A stretch of 64,000 nucleotides of DNA from an uncultured Pelagibacteraceae bacterium (GTDB taxonomy: Bacteria; Pseudomonadota; Alphaproteobacteria; Pelagibacterales; Pelagibacteraceae). Positions 11,172 to 58,760 of the stretch are shown in pieces; within the stretch, counting starts at the first letter, position 1; each line of letters starts with the position of its first letter. The DNA lies in NCBI GenBank assembly GCA_902598125.1, contig CACKAJ010000003.1, positions 103,590 to 167,589 on the forward strand. Reading direction: 5' to 3'. The notes under the pieces were generated by a model. The model was not told the DNA's origin, searched no databases, and was given only the letters and a program-made list of their open reading frames with translations. The position numbers were made by a program, and so were the translations under genes.

Positions 11172-11636
11172 ATGTTTCTATCAAGTTACGAAAACAAACT
11201 AGACAAGAAAGGACGTGTCTCAGTGCCAGCTACATTTAGATCCCATTTAAATTCGATGGGTTATAATGGTTTTATAAGCTACCCCTCTTTTAATCACTCA
11301 GCACTTGAAGCATGTTCTCAAGATAGAATAGAAAGACTCTCAAACACTATAGACTCACTTAATCCTTTCGAGGACAAAAGAGATTATTTTGCAACTTCAG
11401 TCCTATCAGAAAGCGAGAATTTGCAATTTGATACTGAAGGCAGAGTTTCTTTTTCTGAAAAATTACTCAGTCATGCAAAAATAAAAAATAATATTTTATT
11501 TGTTGGTCTTGGAAAAACTTTCCAAATTTGGGAACCTAAATATTTCGAAAAATTTAAATTAGTTGCTAGAAAAAAAGCTTACCAAAATAGATCAAATCTT
11601 AAATGGGAGAATAAACAGAAGGGAGAGCAATCATGA
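11172..11636 (+). CDS. mraZ: transcriptional regulator MraZ
   Basis: Two AbrB-like motifs YENKLDKKGRVSVPATFR and LQFDTEGRVSFSEKL; dcw cluster start. Confidence 0.95.
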   Translation: MFLSSYENKLDKKGRVSVPATFRSHLNSMGYNGFISYPSFNHSALEACSQDRIERLSNTIDSLNPFEDKRDYFATSVLSESENLQFDTEGRVSFSEKLLSHAKIKNNILFVGLGKTFQIWEPKYFEKFKLVARKKAYQNRSNLKWENKQKGEQS

Positions 11637-13141
11637 GTATAAATATTGGAGGAGGAGAATTGAAAGAATTGAAACCTAGAATACTTGTTTTGGGAGTCGG
11701 TGGCGCTGGTGGTAATGCTATAAATGCAATGATTGAGTCTGGTATGGAAGGAGTTGAATTTGTTGCAGTAAATACTGACGCTCAAGATTTAAAAATGAGT
11801 AAAGCTCACGCAAAAATACAAATAGGAATGAATTTGACTAAAGGCTTAGGAGCGGGAGCAAAGCATGATATTGGACAAGCTGCTGCTGACGAGTCTTTAA
11901 ATGAAATTATAAGTTATATGCAAGGAGCAAATATGGTGTTTATTACTTCAGGCATGGGTGGAGGCACAGGTACAGGTGCATCTCATGTGATAGCTAGAGC
12001 AGCTAGAGAATTAAACATTTTAACTGTTGGTGTTACTACTTTACCTTTTTCGTATGAGGGGCCTAAAAGAATGAGAAGAGCAGTTGAAGGACTGGAAGAG
12101 TTTAAAAAACATTTAGATACAGTTATCGTTGTACCAAATCAAAATCTTTTTAAGATTGCTAGTGAAACTACAACTTTTGAACAGTCATTTAATTTATCTA
12201 ATAACGTTTTAAAGCACGGGGTACAAAGTGTCACTGATTTAATGGTGAGGCCAGGTATGATAAATTTAGATTTTGCTGATGTTGAAACAGTAATGAGTTC
12301 AATGGGTAAAGCCATGATGGGTACTGGAGAAGCTGAAGGTGAAAATAGAGCTATGGAAGCCACAGAGATGGCTCTTAACAATCCACTAATTGATGAATAT
12401 TCATTACAAGGAGCGAAAGGTTTATTAATTAATATCACTGGTGGAAATGATCTTACATTATTTGAAGTTGATCAATCAGTTAACAAGATAAGAGCAGAAG
12501 TTGATCCAGAAGCAGAGTTGATATTTGGAGCAATCAAAGATGAAAATATGACTGGTAAAATTAGAGTTTCTGTGGTGGCTACGGCTCTTGATGGCCATAA
12601 AACAGAAAACAAAACAGTCTTGAATATGGTATCACGAATTCAAAATAGAAATACCGGGTATTCAGAAAACTTATTTTCTCATAACAAGAGAGTAGAGAGT
12701 AACACTCTTAGTTCTATCGATGGAGCTACTGCTCTTAAGCTAGATGAGAGTTTTGAAATAGATGAAGAACAAAATAATTCATTAAATAATTATGAACATA
12801 AATCTGAAGAAAATAATATACCAAGAACGTCAAACGAAGCACATTACGTAGCTGATGATAATGTTGCAGGTAGTATTCCATCTGGAGTTTCTATTGAAAG
12901 TGCATCATACATAGAAAATAATAACATTGAGGAAAATGAAGCTCAATTTCCAATCTCAGAAAAAAGTGATGATGAGCACACACCTAAATTATTTTCTGAA
13001 GACCAAAGTAATGAGGTCGATGCAAATATTCCAGAAGATAGAGAAAAAACAGATGATGTATCTGAACAGCTTTTTGAACAAGACGTAAATGAAGAAGAAG
13101 ATTTTGAAATACCAGCATTTTTAAGAAAACAAAAGTTTTAA
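11633..13141 (+). CDS. ftsZ: cell division protein FtsZ
   Basis: Tubulin signature GMGGGTGTGASHVIARAAREL; C-terminal conserved peptide EEDFEIPAFLRKQ; overlaps mraZ by ATGA. Confidence 0.97.
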   Translation: MSINIGGGELKELKPRILVLGVGGAGGNAINAMIESGMEGVEFVAVNTDAQDLKMSKAHAKIQIGMNLTKGLGAGAKHDIGQAAADESLNEIISYMQGANMVFITSGMGGGTGTGASHVIARAARELNILTVGVTTLPFSYEGPKRMRRAVEGLEEFKKHLDTVIVVPNQNLFKIASETTTFEQSFNLSNNVLKHGVQSVTDLMVRPGMINLDFADVETVMSSMGKAMMGTGEAEGENRAMEATEMALNNPLIDEYSLQGAKGLLINITGGNDLTLFEVDQSVNKIRAEVDPEAELIFGAIKDENMTGKIRVSVVATALDGHKTENKTVLNMVSRIQNRNTGYSENLFSHNKRVESNTLSSIDGATALKLDESFEIDEEQNNSLNNYEHKSEENNIPRTSNEAHYVADDNVAGSIPSGVSIESASYIENNNIEENEAQFPISEKSDDEHTPKLFSEDQSNEVDANIPEDREKTDDVSEQLFEQDVNEEEDFEIPAFLRKQKF

Positions 13142-14501: not shown

Positions 14502-16197
14502 GAACAATAACCAAACGAGTTTTTATTTTGAAGATTTTTTAGAAACTAATAAAAAAACAAAAATATTAAAGAAACCAAATAACTTTCAAGACAGAATTTA
14601 TTTATTATTTTTTCTTTTTTTTTCACTAATTTTAATTTTCTCAATTAAAATAACTCATATTTCACTAAACAATAAAGATATTTTCAACTTGAAGGATCAG
14701 AATTCAAAATTCACACTATTGAGAAGGGATATAGTCGATCGAAACGATGTAATTATCTCTAGAAACATAAACACATTTCATGTTGGTGTTGACCCAAAAT
14801 TAATAAAAGATAAACAGAATTTTTTAATAAAACTAAGACTAAATTTTCCAGAAATTCAAATAGAAGAAATTAAAAAAAAAATATATGGCAAAAAATATTT
14901 CCGTTTAAAAACCAGAATTAATCAAGTTCAAAAAGAAAAATTTTGGGCTTTAGGAGAAAAAGGAATAAGATTTGAACCGTTTCAAGCAAGAATGTACACC
15001 CACGGCGATTTATTTAGTCATATAATTGGTCAAGTTGATTATGATAATTATGGTGTCTCTGGCTTAGAAAAATATTTTGATAGGGAGTTAAAAAAAAAGG
15101 AATTAATCCATCAACCTTTAAAACTTACCTTAGATAGTAATATTCAACATATTATAAAAAAAGAATTAAACAATGCTTTAGAAACTTTTAGAGCTACAGG
15201 TGGTGCAGCTCTCTTGATGGATGTAAATAACGGAGAAATATTATCTTTGGTTTCATTACCTAATTATAATATTAATAGAAGAATAACAATCAAAGATCAA
15301 AATTACATAAATAAAATTACAAAAGGTGTTTATGAACTTGGTTCAATTTTTAAAACTTTTACCGTTGCTTTAGCAATTGATCAAAAAATAGTACAGCCAG
15401 AAACTATTATTAAAAATATTCCAAAGAAAATTAAGTGTTCAATACATGAGATTACTGATATGAAAGAACATCCTGCAAATTTATCAGTCGAAGAAATATT
15501 AGTAAGATCATCTAATGTTGGCTCAGTCATTTTAGCAAAAAAAATAGGTGAGGAAAGATATAAAAATTTTATTGATAAAACAAAATTAACCAAAAATCCA
15601 ATTATTGAATTGGAAGAGGTTGGCGTTCCACATAAATTAAAATGGAATAGATGTAAATTAGAGACAATTTCATTTGGTCACGGAATAACAACAACGCCAC
15701 TCCAAGCAACTACATTGTATGCAAGTATGGTTAATGGCGGAAGATTAATCACACCTAGTTTTATTCAAAAGAATAATAAAAAAAATTCAGATAAAATAAT
15801 ATCTAGCAAAACAAGTAAACAAATCAGCGGTATTTTAAGACAAGTGGTGACTAGTAGAGAGGGCACCGCCAGTTTAGCCGATAAAAAAGGCTATCATGTT
15901 GGTGGAAAGACAGGTACAGCAGAAAGTTACGGTAATAGTAAAAAAAGAATAAATACTTTTATATCTATATTTCCATCTAATGAACCTAATTACACTTTAT
16001 TCTTGATGTTAGAAAATCCGAAAATAAATAAAGATCTTATTTACGATTATAGAGGAGTAAAGACTAAAGCGCCTTACAACACTTCTGGTTGGAATTCTGT
16101 TTATGTCGCGGGCAAAATAATAGAAAAAATTGGGCCAATTTTAGCCATAAATAATAAAGATTTTACTGATCAGTATGTTGTTGAAAAAATTAATTAA
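14476..16197 (+). CDS. ftsI: peptidoglycan transpeptidase FtsI (PBP3)
   Basis: N-terminal TM, PBP dimer domain, transpeptidase motifs (STFK-like GSIFKTF, SSN, KTGTAES). Confidence 0.93.
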   Translation: MKKKYKKNKNNNQTSFYFEDFLETNKKTKILKKPNNFQDRIYLLFFLFFSLILIFSIKITHISLNNKDIFNLKDQNSKFTLLRRDIVDRNDVIISRNINTFHVGVDPKLIKDKQNFLIKLRLNFPEIQIEEIKKKIYGKKYFRLKTRINQVQKEKFWALGEKGIRFEPFQARMYTHGDLFSHIIGQVDYDNYGVSGLEKYFDRELKKKELIHQPLKLTLDSNIQHIIKKELNNALETFRATGGAALLMDVNNGEILSLVSLPNYNINRRITIKDQNYINKITKGVYELGSIFKTFTVALAIDQKIVQPETIIKNIPKKIKCSIHEITDMKEHPANLSVEEILVRSSNVGSVILAKKIGEERYKNFIDKTKLTKNPIIELEEVGVPHKLKWNRCKLETISFGHGITTTPLQATTLYASMVNGGRLITPSFIQKNNKKNSDKIISSKTSKQISGILRQVVTSREGTASLADKKGYHVGGKTGTAESYGNSKKRINTFISIFPSNEPNYTLFLMLENPKINKDLIYDYRGVKTKAPYNTSGWNSVYVAGKIIEKIGPILAINNKDFTDQYVVEKIN

Positions 16198-18934
16198 AAA
16201 TATTCCAAATAAGTTTAGCAATATAGATATTAAGGGGCTTTCTTCTAATAGCAAAGAAGTTAAGCGGAACTATATCTTTTTCGCAATAAAAGGAAATAAA
16301 ACTAATGGGGAAAAATTTATAAAGGATGCTATAAAAAAAGGAGCAGCAGTAATTATTTGCTCAAAAAACTGCAATTTTAAAAGTGAAAAAATTTTAATTA
16401 TTAAAAAAAATAATATTAGAAATTATTTAAGTATAATATCCTCAAAATTTTATAAATTAAAACCTCAAAACATTATTGCCGTGACCGGCACTAATGGCAA
16501 AACATCTATAGCAGATTTATTTTTTCAAATATTTAATTTAAACAAAATACCAGTTGGATCTATTGGAACTTTAGGAATAAAATATAATAACAAAACAATT
16601 AAAACCAATCTTACTTCTCCAGATACGATCTCAATACATAAATATTTAGATTTTTTTAAAAGAAAAAAAATTAATAATGTGATCGTTGAAGCATCAAGTC
16701 ACGGTCTAGATCAAGACAGATTAAATAATATAAACTTTAAAGCAGGAATTTTCACTAATTTCAGTCAAGATCATCTAGATTATCATAAAACTATGAAATC
16801 TTATCTAAATGCGAAAATGATACTATTTAAAAAAATTTTGAAAAAAAATTCAGTGATAATCTCAGATAAAGAAATTAATCCTTTCAATTTATTAAAAAAA
16901 ATCTCAGTCAAAAAGAAAATTAAGTTATTAGATATTACAAATGATATTCAAAAAATTAAAAGTATTCTACCGAATTTAACTAACGACTTTAAAATTAAAA
17001 ATTTAGCGATGACGATACGAGCAGTAAAAATTTGTGATTTGAAAAATGAAATAATAATAAAAACAATAAAAAAAATTAAGGATGTAAATGGTAGATTAGA
17101 GTTGGTAAAAAATTACCCAAACGGTATAAAAGTTTTTATCGATTACGCACATACACCTGATGCATTATTGAAAGCATTATCGTTTTTAAATAAAGAGTAT
17201 GGCCCAAATATTTCTTTAGTTTTTGGTTGTGGAGGAAATAGAGATAAAAAAAAAAGACCTTTAATGTCTAAAATAGCTAATAACAAATGCAAAAAAATTT
17301 ACGTTACCGACGATAATCCAAGAGATGAAAATCCCAGTAAAATTAGAAATCAATTAGCTAGGTATATTAATAAAAATAAATGCTTTAACATTGAAAATAG
17401 ATCCCTAGCGATAAAAAAAGCAATTACAAATGCTGAACCTAAAGAGGTTATTTTGATAGCAGGAAAAGGACATGAAGAAAAACAAATTTACAAAGATAAA
17501 GTTTATTATATCTCAGATAAAAAAATTGTAAAAAAATTGAAAATTAAAAAAAAAGTATTTTCAAAAAAACAAATAAGTTATTTACAAAATAAATCAATAA
17601 TTAAAAAGTTAGTCCCCAAATTCAAACCATTAGATTTTAATGGTCTTTCAATAGACTCAAGAACTGTTAAAAAAGATAATTTATTTCTTACTATTAAAGG
17701 AAATAGAAATGATGGTAGTAAATTTATTAATGAGGCACTTAAAAAAGGAGCATCAGCAATTGTTACAACTTCAAATGTAAAAAAAAATAACAAGATTGTT
17801 AGGATAAATGACTCTTTCTACTTTTTAAATCAGTTTGCCAAATTAAAACGTGAATGCTCAATAGCTAAAATAATTGCAATCACTGGAAGCGCAGGAAAAA
17901 CGTCATTAAAAAATATTTTGAAAGATCTATTATCTAACTATGGCAATACTTACTCATCGCCAAAATCTTTCAATAATCACTATGGTGTGCCTGTAAGTTT
18001 ATCAAATTTAAATTTTGATGACAAATACGGTATTTTTGAAGTAGGGATGAGTAGATCAGGAGAAATAAAAAGACTATCTAAATTGATCAAGCCACATCTT
18101 GCTGTAATCACCAATATTGGTGAAGCTCACTTAGAGAATTTTAAAAATATTAGAGGTATAGCAAAAGCTAAATCAGAGATCATTGAAAACATTCAAGCCG
18201 GAGGAACAATTGTTCTCAACAGAGATGATAAATTTTTTAAATTTTTATTTAAAAAAGCAAAAACATTTAAATTAAAAATTTCTACATTTGGAAAGCATAA
18301 TAACTCAGATATATGTTTAAAAAAAATTGAAAGGGTGGGTGAATTTTCAAAAATTTATTTAAAAGTAAATAATCAAATATTTGATCTTAAAATTAAAGAT
18401 ATAAATATTTATAATTTACTTGCATCAGTAGCGGTTTTAAAACAACTTGGAGTAAATATTAACAAAATTCACTCGAAAATAAAAAAATTAGAACCATCGG
18501 AAGGTAGAGGTAAAAAGTATTCTATCCTACGCTATAAGAAAAAATTTAATTTGATAGATGAAAGCTATAACGCTAATCCTTTGTCAGTAAAAAATGCAAT
18601 TAAAAAGTTAAATTTGATTAAAAAAGATAAATTTAAGAAATATCTAATACTTGGAGACATGTTAGAACTAGGCCCTAAAACAAAAAAATTTCATGAGGAA
18701 TTATCTAAAGTTATTAACAATTCCGATATTGATAAAGTTTTCGTTAAAGGAAAAAAAACAATTTTCACCTATAAATATCTAAATAAAAAAAAAAGAGGAA
18801 ATATTTTGCAAAACAATGAAGATATAGATTTAAGTTTAAATAATATAATTTCAAATAACGATTATCTAATGATTAAAGGTTCAAACGCAACAGGTCTTAA
18901 TAATTTTAGCAAAAGAATGATAAAAGGGATTTAG
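16175..18934 (+). CDS. murE-murF: fused MurE-MurF: UDP-MurNAc-tripeptide synthetase / UDP-MurNAc-pentapeptide synthetase
   Basis: Single 919-aa ORF with two Mur ligase modules: MurE (VTGTNGKTSIADLF, DNPRDENP) to about aa 465, then MurF (GLSIDSRTVKKDNLFLTIKGNRNDGSKF, ITGSAGKTSLKNIL, LIDESYNANPLSVKNAI). Confidence 0.95.
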   Translation: MLLKKLIKNIPNKFSNIDIKGLSSNSKEVKRNYIFFAIKGNKTNGEKFIKDAIKKGAAVIICSKNCNFKSEKILIIKKNNIRNYLSIISSKFYKLKPQNIIAVTGTNGKTSIADLFFQIFNLNKIPVGSIGTLGIKYNNKTIKTNLTSPDTISIHKYLDFFKRKKINNVIVEASSHGLDQDRLNNINFKAGIFTNFSQDHLDYHKTMKSYLNAKMILFKKILKKNSVIISDKEINPFNLLKKISVKKKIKLLDITNDIQKIKSILPNLTNDFKIKNLAMTIRAVKICDLKNEIIIKTIKKIKDVNGRLELVKNYPNGIKVFIDYAHTPDALLKALSFLNKEYGPNISLVFGCGGNRDKKKRPLMSKIANNKCKKIYVTDDNPRDENPSKIRNQLARYINKNKCFNIENRSLAIKKAITNAEPKEVILIAGKGHEEKQIYKDKVYYISDKKIVKKLKIKKKVFSKKQISYLQNKSIIKKLVPKFKPLDFNGLSIDSRTVKKDNLFLTIKGNRNDGSKFINEALKKGASAIVTTSNVKKNNKIVRINDSFYFLNQFAKLKRECSIAKIIAITGSAGKTSLKNILKDLLSNYGNTYSSPKSFNNHYGVPVSLSNLNFDDKYGIFEVGMSRSGEIKRLSKLIKPHLAVITNIGEAHLENFKNIRGIAKAKSEIIENIQAGGTIVLNRDDKFFKFLFKKAKTFKLKISTFGKHNNSDICLKKIERVGEFSKIYLKVNNQIFDLKIKDINIYNLLASVAVLKQLGVNINKIHSKIKKLEPSEGRGKKYSILRYKKKFNLIDESYNANPLSVKNAIKKLNLIKKDKFKKYLILGDMLELGPKTKKFHEELSKVINNSDIDKVFVKGKKTIFTYKYLNKKKRGNILQNNEDIDLSLNNIISNNDYLMIKGSNATGLNNFSKRMIKGI

Positions 18935-25786: not shown

Positions 25787-26714
25787 AAAATATAAAAATG
25801 TTTTAGTTGTACTTGGTGGCACTTCTGGTGAACGAGCCGTGAGTTTGGAAAGTGGAAAAGCTTGTGCAATTGCCCTGAAAAAAAAAGGCTATAAAGTTTC
25901 AATTTTCGATCCAAAGAGAAAAAATTTTAATTTAATTAATAAACTAAAAACTGACGTAATATTTAATGCTTTACACGGTAGAGATGGAGAGGATGGTATT
26001 GCTCAAAGTTATTTTGAGTATCTAAAAATTCCTTACACTCACTCTGGAGTTATAAGTTCCTATATATCTATGAATAAAGTTTATTCAAAAAAAATTTTTA
26101 TCAAAAATAAAATAAAAACACCTAAATATTTTTCAATTAAGAAAAATCAATATAGTAAAAAATTTATTCAAAAAAAAATTAAGATTAAAAGGATGAATTT
26201 TCCGATTGTTTCTAAGCCGGTTAATGAGGGTTCTAGTTTAGGCGTAGAAGTTTGTAAGGATAAAAAAAAATTATATAGATCAGTTATCAATCTCACAAAA
26301 AAATATGAGGAACTAATATTAGAAGAATACATCGGAGGCCAAGAGATTCAAGTTGCAGTCATTAATGGTAAAGCGCTTGGTGCTATTGAATTAATTCCAA
26401 AACGATTATTTTACGATTACAAAGCTAAATACACTAAACAAGCCAAAACAAAACATGTAATGCCAGCTAACTTGTCAAAGTTAAAATATTTAGAGGTTTT
26501 GAAAATAGCTAAAAAGGCACACGAAACATTAAACTGTAGAGGTGTTACAAGATCTGATTTTAAATTTTATAAAGGTAATTTTTATTTATTGGAAACCAAT
26601 ACACAACCAGGTATGACAGGACTTTCTTTGGTACCAGAAATAGCAAATTATACAGGTTTAAACTTTGAAAATTTAGTTGAGAAAATTCTATTAGATGCAA
26701 GTATCAATAGATGA
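25773..26714 (+). CDS. ddl: D-alanine--D-alanine ligase
   Basis: GGTSGERAVSLESGKA, HGRDGEDG, KPVNEGSSLGV, RSDFKF...LETNTQPGMTGLSLVPEIA. Confidence 0.96.
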   Translation: MVKNKKYKNVLVVLGGTSGERAVSLESGKACAIALKKKGYKVSIFDPKRKNFNLINKLKTDVIFNALHGRDGEDGIAQSYFEYLKIPYTHSGVISSYISMNKVYSKKIFIKNKIKTPKYFSIKKNQYSKKFIQKKIKIKRMNFPIVSKPVNEGSSLGVEVCKDKKKLYRSVINLTKKYEELILEEYIGGQEIQVAVINGKALGAIELIPKRLFYDYKAKYTKQAKTKHVMPANLSKLKYLEVLKIAKKAHETLNCRGVTRSDFKFYKGNFYLLETNTQPGMTGLSLVPEIANYTGLNFENLVEKILLDASINR

Positions 26715-27367
26715 AAAAACGATTAGTTATTTCAATTTTTATATTACTTTTTTTAACCACAATAACCTCAAAACAAACAATTAAAGTTGCAAAGTTTGAT
26801 TTAAAAGAAATTTATATTGAAAATAATTCTTTATTAAATGCTGATGATATTAAAAAACAATTGATTTCAATTTATGGTAAAAATTTGATATTTTTAAAAA
26901 ATATTGAAATTGAAAAAAAACTTATGAAGAATAGTTTTATAGAAGGTTTTAATATAAAAAAAAAATATCCAAATACTTTAAAAATAAAAATCTTTGAAAA
27001 AAAACCAATCGCAATTCTTATTAAGAATAAAAAAAAATATTATCTCAGTGAGAAAATTGATTTAATAGAATTCAATAATTTCCAAAATTTTAAAAACTTA
27101 CCGTACGTAATAGGAAATGAAAATGAATTTAAAATTTTTTATTATAACTTGAAAAAAGTTGATTTTCCTCTAGGGCTCGTAAATAAATTTGTATTATATG
27201 ACTCAAAACGATGGGATATAGAAACTATTAACAAAAATACTATTAAACTTCCATCTGAAAATTATCTAGAAAGTTTAGAAAATTATTTAAAATTCAGAAA
27301 TCAAATTGAGTCTAAAAAATATAAATTATTCGACTATCGAATAAATAATCAGCTAATATTAAAATAA
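26711..27367 (+). CDS. ftsQ: cell division protein FtsQ (POTRA)
   Basis: N-terminal TM and POTRA-like IYIENNSLLNADDIKKQL...; position between ddl and ftsA-like gene. Confidence 0.8.
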   Translation: MKKRLVISIFILLFLTTITSKQTIKVAKFDLKEIYIENNSLLNADDIKKQLISIYGKNLIFLKNIEIEKKLMKNSFIEGFNIKKKYPNTLKIKIFEKKPIAILIKNKKKYYLSEKIDLIEFNNFQNFKNLPYVIGNENEFKIFYYNLKKVDFPLGLVNKFVLYDSKRWDIETINKNTIKLPSENYLESLENYLKFRNQIESKKYKLFDYRINNQLILK

Positions 27368-27384: not shown

Positions 27385-28581
27385 ATGAAAAATTCTTTAC
27401 TCACTCTATTCATAGAAATTGATAATTACAATTTAACTTTTTTTGTGTGTGAGAGCGATTTTCAAAATTATTTTAAAATAACTTTTAAATCTGAAGTACA
27501 GATAAATAGACAAAAAGATATAAGAATTTCTGATTTTAATGAAGTTTATAATATTATAAAAAAAAATATTTTTATAATCGAAAAAAAAATAAATTTTACT
27601 TTTAAAGAGGTTGTTTTAATACTAGAAAATTTTAATCCCTCATTTATAAGCTTATCAGGTTTCAAAAAATTAAACGGGTCTCAAGTATTGAAAGAAAATA
27701 TTACTTATATTTTAAATTCATTAAAATCTTGTGTTGAAGAAATAGAAAAAAAGAAAAAAATTTTACATATTTTTAATTCAAAATTTAATTTAGATAATAA
27801 AAATATTGAAAATTTACCTATAGGATTGTTTGGCGATTTTTATAGTCACGAGTTATCTTTTGTATTAATTAATTCAAATAATTTTAAAAATTTAAATAAT
27901 ATTTTTGAAAAATGTAATTTAAGTATTAAAAAGACTTTGCTTAAAAGTTTTGTCAGTGGAGCTCATATAAGTGATAACAACATAAATGCTGATACTTTTT
28001 TTCAAATTCAAATTAATAATACAAATTCAAAAGTGTTTTATTTCGAAAACAATTCTTTAAAATTCGAGCAGGATTTTAATTTTGGATCAGAAATTATTAT
28101 TAAAGATATTTCTAAAATCACATCACTTAGTACAAAAAAAGTAAAAGAAATTTTAAATGAAATTGAATATAAAGAAGATTATACAGATGACGAAGTAATA
28201 GAAAAAAAATTTTTTGATAAAGATAATTATAGAAAGATAAAAAAAAAATTAATCTGCGATATTTCTTTAGCCAGAGTGGAAGAAATTTTTGATTTAATAA
28301 TATTAAAGAATAATAATCTCAAATTTTATAGCGAATTATCAAAAACAATTTTTTTGCAGCTTAATAAAAATATTGGATATGACTATTTAAAAAGTATTTT
28401 TGATACTGAATTGAATAAAAAAGGCAAATTTGAATTAAAGTTTTTAGACTTCATCAAGACAGATGGGATGATGGAAACAGCAAATAAGCTTGTTCATTTT
28501 GGTTGGAAAAAAGAAGCAATACCTGTTACCAGATCCAAAAAGACAGTAATTGCTAGGATTTTTGAAGCAATTTTTGGTTAA
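27385..28581 (+). CDS. ftsA: highly divergent FtsA-like protein
   Basis: 398 aa at ftsA position (after ftsQ, before lpxC); C-terminal amphipathic tail KKTVIARIFEAIFG as in FtsA membrane-targeting helix; SFVSGAHISD... and EEIFDLIILKN...LVHFGWKKEAIPV fit the FtsA layout; nucleotide motifs degenerate. Confidence 0.72.
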   Translation: MKNSLLTLFIEIDNYNLTFFVCESDFQNYFKITFKSEVQINRQKDIRISDFNEVYNIIKKNIFIIEKKINFTFKEVVLILENFNPSFISLSGFKKLNGSQVLKENITYILNSLKSCVEEIEKKKKILHIFNSKFNLDNKNIENLPIGLFGDFYSHELSFVLINSNNFKNLNNIFEKCNLSIKKTLLKSFVSGAHISDNNINADTFFQIQINNTNSKVFYFENNSLKFEQDFNFGSEIIIKDISKITSLSTKKVKEILNEIEYKEDYTDDEVIEKKFFDKDNYRKIKKKLICDISLARVEEIFDLIILKNNNLKFYSELSKTIFLQLNKNIGYDYLKSIFDTELNKKGKFELKFLDFIKTDGMMETANKLVHFGWKKEAIPVTRSKKTVIARIFEAIFG

Positions 28582-28647
28582 TATTTGTTTTTTTTAGAAA
28601 CATTAGTTGTTTTAATTATAAAACCACACTCAAGTATAACACTTTTG

Positions 28648-29574
28648 ATGAATAATATATTTCAAAAAACTTTATCAAAAAAAGTGAGTTTCAAAGGGAT
28701 AGGTTTACATTCTGGAGAAAACTCTACAATTAATCTGCATCCTGCAAAAGAAGATAAAGGAATTATATTTAAAAGAGTTGATCTTAAGCATAATAACATT
28801 ATCGAAGCTAACTTCCAAAATGTAACATCAGCTAGATTATGCACTACTTTGGAGAATAGTCATGGTGTTAAAGTTTCAACTGTCGAACATTTACTTGCTG
28901 CACTTTATATAGTTGGAATAGATAATGCCATTGTAGAAATAGACAATGAGGAGGTTCCAATAATGGATGGATCAGCAAAAGATTTTATCGAAATCTTGAA
29001 TGAAGTTAAAGTCGTTAATCTTTCAAAGAAAAGAAAATACTTAAAAGTTACAGAAAAGGTCGAATTATTTGATGGTGATAGAAAAATATCTATTGAGCCT
29101 AATGATTTAGCTTTTGAAGTTGATTTTCAATTAAACTATCAAAATAAAATTATCGGGAAACAAAGAAATAAAATTAATTTTTTTTCTGATGAATTAGAAG
29201 ATGTTTATTTATCAAGAACGTTTTGTTTGTTTCATGATATCGAAAAGATAAAAAAAAATGGATTAGCTAAAGGTGGATCTTTAGATAATGCTATAGTTGT
29301 TGATGATGAAAAAGTTTTAAATAAAAGCGGTCTTAGAAATGATAAAGAGTTTGTAAATCATAAAATTTTAGATTTAGCAGGTGATTTTTTACTTTCAGGT
29401 CATAGAGTATTGGGAAAAGTAAAATGTTACCAAGGTGGTCACAAATTAACAAATATGTTTTTAAGAAAATTATTAAACTCAAAATCAGCAACAACCTTAT
29501 ATGAACTTAACGAGCTTATAATTTCTGATAACAAAAAATCCAATCAAATTAATAAAATAGCGGTTAACGCATAA
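28648..29574 (+). CDS. lpxC: UDP-3-O-acyl-N-acetylglucosamine deacetylase
   Basis: FQKTLSKKVSFKGIGLHSGENSTINLHPA, STVEHLLAALYIVGIDNA, DGSAKDF, NHKILDLAGDFLLSGHRVLG; ORF-track TTG start at 28585 judged too far upstream. Confidence 0.97.
   Translation: MNNIFQKTLSKKVSFKGIGLHSGENSTINLHPAKEDKGIIFKRVDLKHNNIIEANFQNVTSARLCTTLENSHGVKVSTVEHLLAALYIVGIDNAIVEIDNEEVPIMDGSAKDFIEILNEVKVVNLSKKRKYLKVTEKVELFDGDRKISIEPNDLAFEVDFQLNYQNKIIGKQRNKINFFSDELEDVYLSRTFCLFHDIEKIKKNGLAKGGSLDNAIVVDDEKVLNKSGLRNDKEFVNHKILDLAGDFLLSGHRVLGKVKCYQGGHKLTNMFLRKLLNSKSATTLYELNELIISDNKKSNQINKIAVNA

Positions 29575-56148: not shown

Positions 56149-58760
<2,612 letters not shown>

Follow-up and report, generated by a model that had tools for sequence, protein, structure and literature searches.

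In FtsA of Escherichia coli, most of the inactivating substitutions lie in the ATP site (PMC5832921), and the need of FtsA for ATP, and its purpose, are a standing question. The site for the FtsZ peptide is located in domain 2B (PMC9098913), while in FtsA of V. maritimus the IC and IA domains form the cleft for FtsN and the longitudinal filament contact is made by IIA-IIB (PMC7613929). Here we compare with these systems the FtsA of an uncultured Pelagibacteraceae bacterium (GCA_902598125.1), encoded in a 64,000-nucleotide stretch of contig CACKAJ010000003.1 (positions 103,590 to 167,589), hereafter called the window. It is orthologous by profile and gene position to canonical FtsA (E. coli, V. 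maritimus, T. maritima; TIGR01174), with which it has the IC domain, an Arg/Glu pair in IIB and the C-terminal tail in common, but every nucleotide-binding motif is gone and its score falls under the curated cut-off of the family. We consider it quite probable that the gene encodes a functional orthologue of FtsA that became a pseudo-actin independent of nucleotides in the ancestor shared by two Pelagibacteraceae genera, with its links to FtsZ, the membrane and the divisome kept. No report of FtsA degeneration in SAR11 was found in the open-access literature. The locus and the central domain of the protein are as follows.

26711..27367, + strand, ftsQ, upstream neighbour of ftsA (PF08478 POTRA_1, E 7.4e-11)
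27385..28581, + strand, ftsA orthologue of 398 aa without nucleotide motifs (hhalign and gene position)
27649..27837, + strand, core of the IC (SHS2) domain, residues 89-151, the domain with the highest conservation in the clade (PF02491, E 1.5e-4)
28585..29574, + strand, lpxC, downstream neighbour of ftsA, whose true start may be further in (PF03331, E 8.1e-97)

The ORF thus stands where the sequence-only reading had placed it, between ftsQ and lpxC, and the strings quoted there are correct. The gene order of the dcw cluster is mraZ-ftsZ-rsmH-ftsL-ftsI-murEF-mraY-murD-ftsW-murG-murC-murB-ddl-ftsQ-ftsA-lpxC, with the gene names given partly by sequence recognition. A profile of ten members of the window's genus aligned end to end with canonical SAR11 FtsA in hhalign (100%, E 4.6e-40, 394 columns), the HMM-HMM comparison that had been proposed, and in a PDB search with the window-genus profile all the matches up to E 0.1 were FtsA chains. 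TIGR01174 (ftsA) matched the window protein with E 5.6e-27 and 94.8 bits, the curated cut-off being 175.85. PF02491 (SHS2 inserted in FtsA) scored just under its cut-off on the single window sequence (22.5 vs 25.4), and the IC/SHS2 domain within IA is present, since the whole domain is aligned in the profile comparison with canonical SAR11 FtsA. By profile and locus, therefore, the predicted protein is FtsA by descent; misannotation of an unrelated protein was ruled out by the TIGR01174 match, the profile alignment and the FtsA-only PDB matches. That the ORF is not FtsA, or that a shifted alignment makes the motifs merely seem absent, is barely credible: the Pfam and NCBIfam scores under their cut-offs would speak for it, but the profile comparison runs at 100% over 394 columns, the gene order is conserved, and no nucleotide motif is found anywhere in the protein. 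A second FtsA was not found in the window genome, which is 87.7% complete, the other strong match being MreB. Several other features of the cluster were observed. The murE and murF genes form one fused gene of 919 aa (window 16175-18934) with two Mur ligase middle and C-terminal domains, and ftsZ is not located between ftsA and lpxC but opens the cluster, overlapping mraZ (window 11172-13141); the spacing of roughly 15 kb between ftsZ and ftsA recurs in many relatives.

Alignment of the window protein to E. coli and canonical SAR11 FtsA located the regions of the nucleotide motifs, for which MreB of the same window serves as an intact control.

27406..27450, + strand, phosphate-1 region, residues 8-22, DxG[ST]xK absent (alignment to E. 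coli and canonical SAR11 FtsA)
27997..28047, + strand, phosphate-2 region, residues 205-221, DxG absent (same alignment)
28153..28155, + strand, Leu where canonical FtsA has the AExxK lysine (E. coli K258)
28345..28377, + strand, adenosine-motif region, residues 321-331, GxG absent (alignment and glycine positions)
57723..58760, + strand, mreB, intact actin-family control (PF06723, E 1.2e-138)

Residues 8-22 of the window protein read LFIEIDNYNLTFFVC, with E-I-D-N-Y-N in place of the phosphate-1 motif D/E-x-G-S/T-x-K, and residues 205-221 read FFQIQINNTNSKVFYFE, with Q-I-N in place of the phosphate-2 motif D-x-G and the string QINNTNSK at 28009-28032. Both losses had been claimed from the sequence alone and are seen again here, as is the preservation of the MreB motifs (DLGTANT and an intact second motif). 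In addition, the adenosine GxG is replaced by L-N-K, a loss absent from the earlier claim. The glycines of the window FtsA are found only at positions 92, 98, 147, 150, 192, 234, 331, 347, 361, 373 and 398; residues 1-91 are free of glycine and residues 280-370 of GxG, and thus the loops are not relocated to another part of the protein. Structure prediction, for which the alignment held the window protein and two relatives only, gave an unusable model (pLDDT 40, pTM 0.32).

The distribution of the loss was followed in FtsA directly upstream of lpxC at 180 Pelagibacterales loci, with about eight genomes included twice. In this sample g1 is the window's genus (23 sequences), g2 is its sister genus (14 sequences), and 25 sequences from the genera g5, g6, g7, g9, g11 and g12 make up the canonical SAR11 reference set. 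Canonical FtsA of g5, g9, g12 and other SAR11 genera is of the same family as the window FtsA and has the ftsQ-ftsA-lpxC locus and the FtsZ C-terminal peptide in common with it, but these genera keep DxGS, DFGxxKTS and GxGS, whereas the window clade does not. Seven residues are near-invariant in the 25 canonical sequences, namely the equivalents of E. coli D14, G16, D210, G212, K258, G336 and G338; they are kept, in this order, in 0, 0, 0, 2, 0, 0 and 0 sequences of g1 and in 0, 1, 0, 4, 0, 0 and 0 sequences of g2. The lysine at position 258 is present in 45/45 full-length sequences of the genus g4. The alignment across SAR11 that the sequence-only reading had called for therefore shows motif loss in 23/23 g1 and 14/14 g2 sequences. 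Among 30 near-invariant canonical positions, g1 lost 10/10 in the pocket vs 8/20 of the others (one-sided Fisher p = 0.0015), the 10 positions having been assigned to the pocket by us on the basis of the FtsA and MreB folds. In the LpxC tree, one branch, with SH-aLRT of 97, separates the eroded g1 and g2 from the rest. Taken on the alignment and this tree, the motif loss is clade-wide in g1 and g2 with a single origin. As to the possible simplification of the divisome in small cells that the sequence-only reading had suggested, genera with equally small genomes keep the canonical motifs.

Could ATP or another nucleotide still be bound via a pocket rebuilt without the classic motifs? FtsA loops vary naturally, and both genus g3 and family f2 have partial motifs, but all four nucleotide elements are gone together and there is no conserved replacement across g1, where the phosphate-2 Asp is changed to Lys, Glu, Gln or Asn, which makes such a pocket improbable. 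As for the intermediate cases themselves, g3 shows an intermediate motif state; the sister family f2 (L209-L213) keeps the adenosine GxG and has mostly DIR and DIQ at phosphate-1 and phosphate-2, a partial erosion of the pocket; and in the single genome of g8 (L051:1501-2760) the glycines of phosphate-1 and phosphate-2 are missing together with the adenosine GxG, possibly by an independent loss.

The eroded ftsA is under purifying selection, as the dN/dS of eroded pairs is 0.06-0.15, like that of canonical clades, which ruled out a pseudogene reading. Decay of the gene towards its loss has some points in its favour, namely that FtsA is faster-evolving than LpxC in g1 (mean identity 47% vs 58%), that the score is far under the TIGR01174 cut-off and that one g2 genome has many stops in its FtsA match; however, the dN/dS refutes decay for the clade as a whole, and in all 23 g1 and 14 g2 sequences compared the FtsA frame immediately preceding lpxC runs uninterrupted for 376-401 aa, so we regard it as extremely unlikely. 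The exceptional g2 locus (genome G107, C2:10138-11183, L094), in which many stops break the FtsA match, represents either assembly trouble or a true pseudogene.

Moreover, the parts of the protein that would connect it to its partners are retained.

11633..13141, + strand, ftsZ, 502 aa, proposed partner (TIGR00065, 379 bits)
13106..13138, + strand, FtsZ C-terminal peptide EIPAFLRKQKF (FtsZ comparison)
28273..28284, + strand, R297-E300 in IIB (E. coli R300/E303), putative FtsZ-peptide contact
28537..28578, + strand, C-terminal tail KKTVIARIFEAIFG, probable membrane helix (position and hydrophobic pattern common to relatives)

The Arg and Glu of IIB are invariant in 145/145 full-length FtsA sequences. 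Their equivalents presumably contact the FtsZ peptide, as we take from the FtsA-FtsZ structure of T. maritima and from E. coli genetics, although the invariance of the pair could be structural. On the side of FtsZ, EIPAFLR[KR]Q is present in 52/52 proteins compared. Positions E69, H129, D138, P146, N170, G235, D242, R300, E303 and E394 are kept in 37/37 sequences of g1 and g2. With domain borders that are approximate, IC is the best conserved domain (0.76 in g1 and 0.86 in g2), and the second, adenosine half of IIA is the worst conserved (0.32 and 0.46). By these comparisons the loss of motifs is selective, sparing the putative FtsZ-contact pair, IC and the FtsZ peptide. The tail had been described as amphipathic; its position and hydrophobic pattern are common to relatives, but its helical moment is reached by 26% of same-letter shuffles, and its amphipathicity thus rests on composition and position, because the moment is not above the shuffles.

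The simplest reading of these data is an ATP-free FtsA that would still bridge the membrane, FtsZ and the divisome. Domains I and II, kept at the sequence level, would neither bind nor hydrolyse ATP; the C-terminal tail would attach the protein to the membrane, IIB would bind EIPAFLRKQ of FtsZ, and IA-IC would contact the divisome downstream, while any change of oligomer would depend on the binding partners and not on ATP. A nucleotide-free pseudo-actin still holding FtsZ is well supported by the sequences, from which we infer the absent ATP binding, the binding of FtsZ and the membrane and the partner-driven mechanism; 'passive' and 'tether' would likewise describe a mode that we infer. SepF, a non-actin FtsZ membrane anchor, works by a membrane helix and FtsZ-peptide binding without nucleotide, which is similar to the mode proposed here, although it has no homology to the window FtsA. 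The proposal of a pseudo-actin FtsA without nucleotide holds up as regards FtsA descent, the complete and clade-wide loss of the ATP motifs, selection, and the retained IIB pair and FtsZ peptide. The description 'passive FtsZ tether' is incomplete for SAR11, where the short FtsA proteins of g4 drop the FtsZ half and IC is the best conserved domain of the window clade.

Genus g4 is probably Pelagibacter in the strict sense, with genomes of 1.0-1.5 Mb, and its gene between ftsQ and lpxC often encodes merely 220-244 aa. In a search of 119 g4 genomes, full-length ftsA (370-401 aa) was found in 38 and an open frame of 220-241 aa in about 56; most of the remaining genomes have a partial gene, in many cases probably truncated where a contig ends, and in 9 there is no match. 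Examples of these mini-FtsA genes, of about 232-244 aa and all between ftsQ and lpxC, are given below.

L079:1890-2594, mini-FtsA
L086:2507-3208, mini-FtsA
L087:1842-2576, mini-FtsA
L093:1914-2615, mini-FtsA
L149:15880-16578, mini-FtsA
L153:15799-16503, mini-FtsA

When the minis L087, L260 and L262 (236-244 aa) were aligned with the full-length proteins of close relatives (L084, L151, L203 and L224, 368-378 aa), the two forms matched as far as about ...YAKS, and the match resumed at the IC-x-x-G...KQEV helix and went on through the GFFEKLFHFFK tail. The missing segment of about 130 residues corresponds to a clean excision of IIA and IIB, so that IA, IC and the C-terminal tail are kept and domain II with the FtsZ site is gone. 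Consistently, TIGR01174 matched mini-FtsA L087 at profile positions 45-185 only (E 6.3e-13), with SHS2 over its cut-off and PF14450 absent. The mini form is present in single-contig, 99%-complete genomes (G003, G017, G035 and G063), and its dN/dS of 0.11-0.28 indicates purifying selection. In one single-contig genome (G077, L148:15763-16462), a frameshift near an A-rich stretch breaks the mini-FtsA frame, as a sequencing error or a real loss. The LpxC+FtsQ+Ddl tree requires three changes to account for the mini state, with weak rejection of a single mini clade (AU p = 0.043); therefore repeated excision of domain II is likely, short of proven, with recombination in g4 genomes as a caveat. Mini-FtsA resembles the window FtsA in its locus, IA, IC, C-terminal tail and absent nucleotide motifs, but differs in the excised domain II and the lack of a canonical FtsZ site, an event separate from the erosion in the window clade.

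Since mini-FtsA is without the domain that carries the FtsZ site, tethering cannot be the sole conserved job of SAR11 FtsA; that job is probably IA-IC scaffolding. This raises the question whether the window FtsA is itself no longer an FtsZ tether, but a membrane-bound IA-IC adaptor for the late divisome (the FtsQ, FtsW and FtsN side), its domain II being a folding remnant on the way towards mini-FtsA. The high conservation of IC and the poor conservation of the second half of IIA in g1 and g2 fit such an adaptor, as do the g4 lineages in which domain II is gone and purifying selection maintains IA, IC and the tail; against it, R300/E303 together with G235 and D242 of IIB are invariant in 37/37 eroded sequences, where a mere remnant should drift, and we hold it to be unlikely. 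Keeping the pseudo-actin that still holds FtsZ as our explanation for the window clade, we think that, on balance, SAR11 FtsA abandoned the ATPase cycle of actins repeatedly and in different ways, namely by erosion of the pocket with the putative FtsZ contacts kept (the window clade) and by excision of domain II to a hemi-actin IA-IC module on a membrane tail (g4); the excised lineages would hold FtsZ by other means than FtsA-IIB, and the part of FtsA function that cannot be given up would be IA-IC signalling to the divisome.

Because the FtsZ-binding half is deleted while the FtsZ peptide is invariant, another peptide-binding protein may exist in SAR11. SepF was not found in 13 Pelagibacterales genomes, and the FtsX model gave weak matches, far under its cut-off, to frames about 410-420 aa long, apart from one with 831 aa. 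The SPOR matches, lipoprotein-like proteins whose neighbours are mltB- and dacA-like genes by sequence recognition, were rejected as FtsN. The alphaproteobacterial ftsN sits between argS and nagZ, and in every Pelagibacteraceae locus examined this gap holds an open frame for a protein of about 75-90 aa that apparently spans the membrane once, has a very short end in the cytoplasm and is without a recognisable SPOR domain; in most loci the protein ends near a W-x-L-L or W-x-L-x motif.

L286:1232-1498, small argS-nagZ membrane protein
L287:3150-3413, small argS-nagZ membrane protein
L288:1238-1498, small argS-nagZ membrane protein
gaps of L273-L281, small argS-nagZ membrane protein

It is possibly a reduced FtsN, named by position only; if so, it would also lack the basic tail on the cytoplasmic side with which E. 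coli FtsN binds FtsA. The absence of NagZ/ScpA from the window genome was rejected as a correlate of the erosion and is probably an assembly gap, because argS is missing from the same MAGs; other members of g1 and g2 have the locus.

None of the five proteins scanned (four from mini-FtsA loci and one of window type) reached the TIGR01174 cut-off, and mini-FtsA L149 had no NCBIfam match at all, suggesting that annotation pipelines will often miss eroded and mini FtsA. The canonical, pocket-less and domain-II-less forms make a natural series within one family in which evolution has separated ATP binding, FtsZ tethering and IC signalling, each of them testable. For SAR11, which are among the commonest bacteria of the ocean and the most abundant cells on Earth, our results suggest that FtsA can serve cell division even when it is not an actin that binds ATP.
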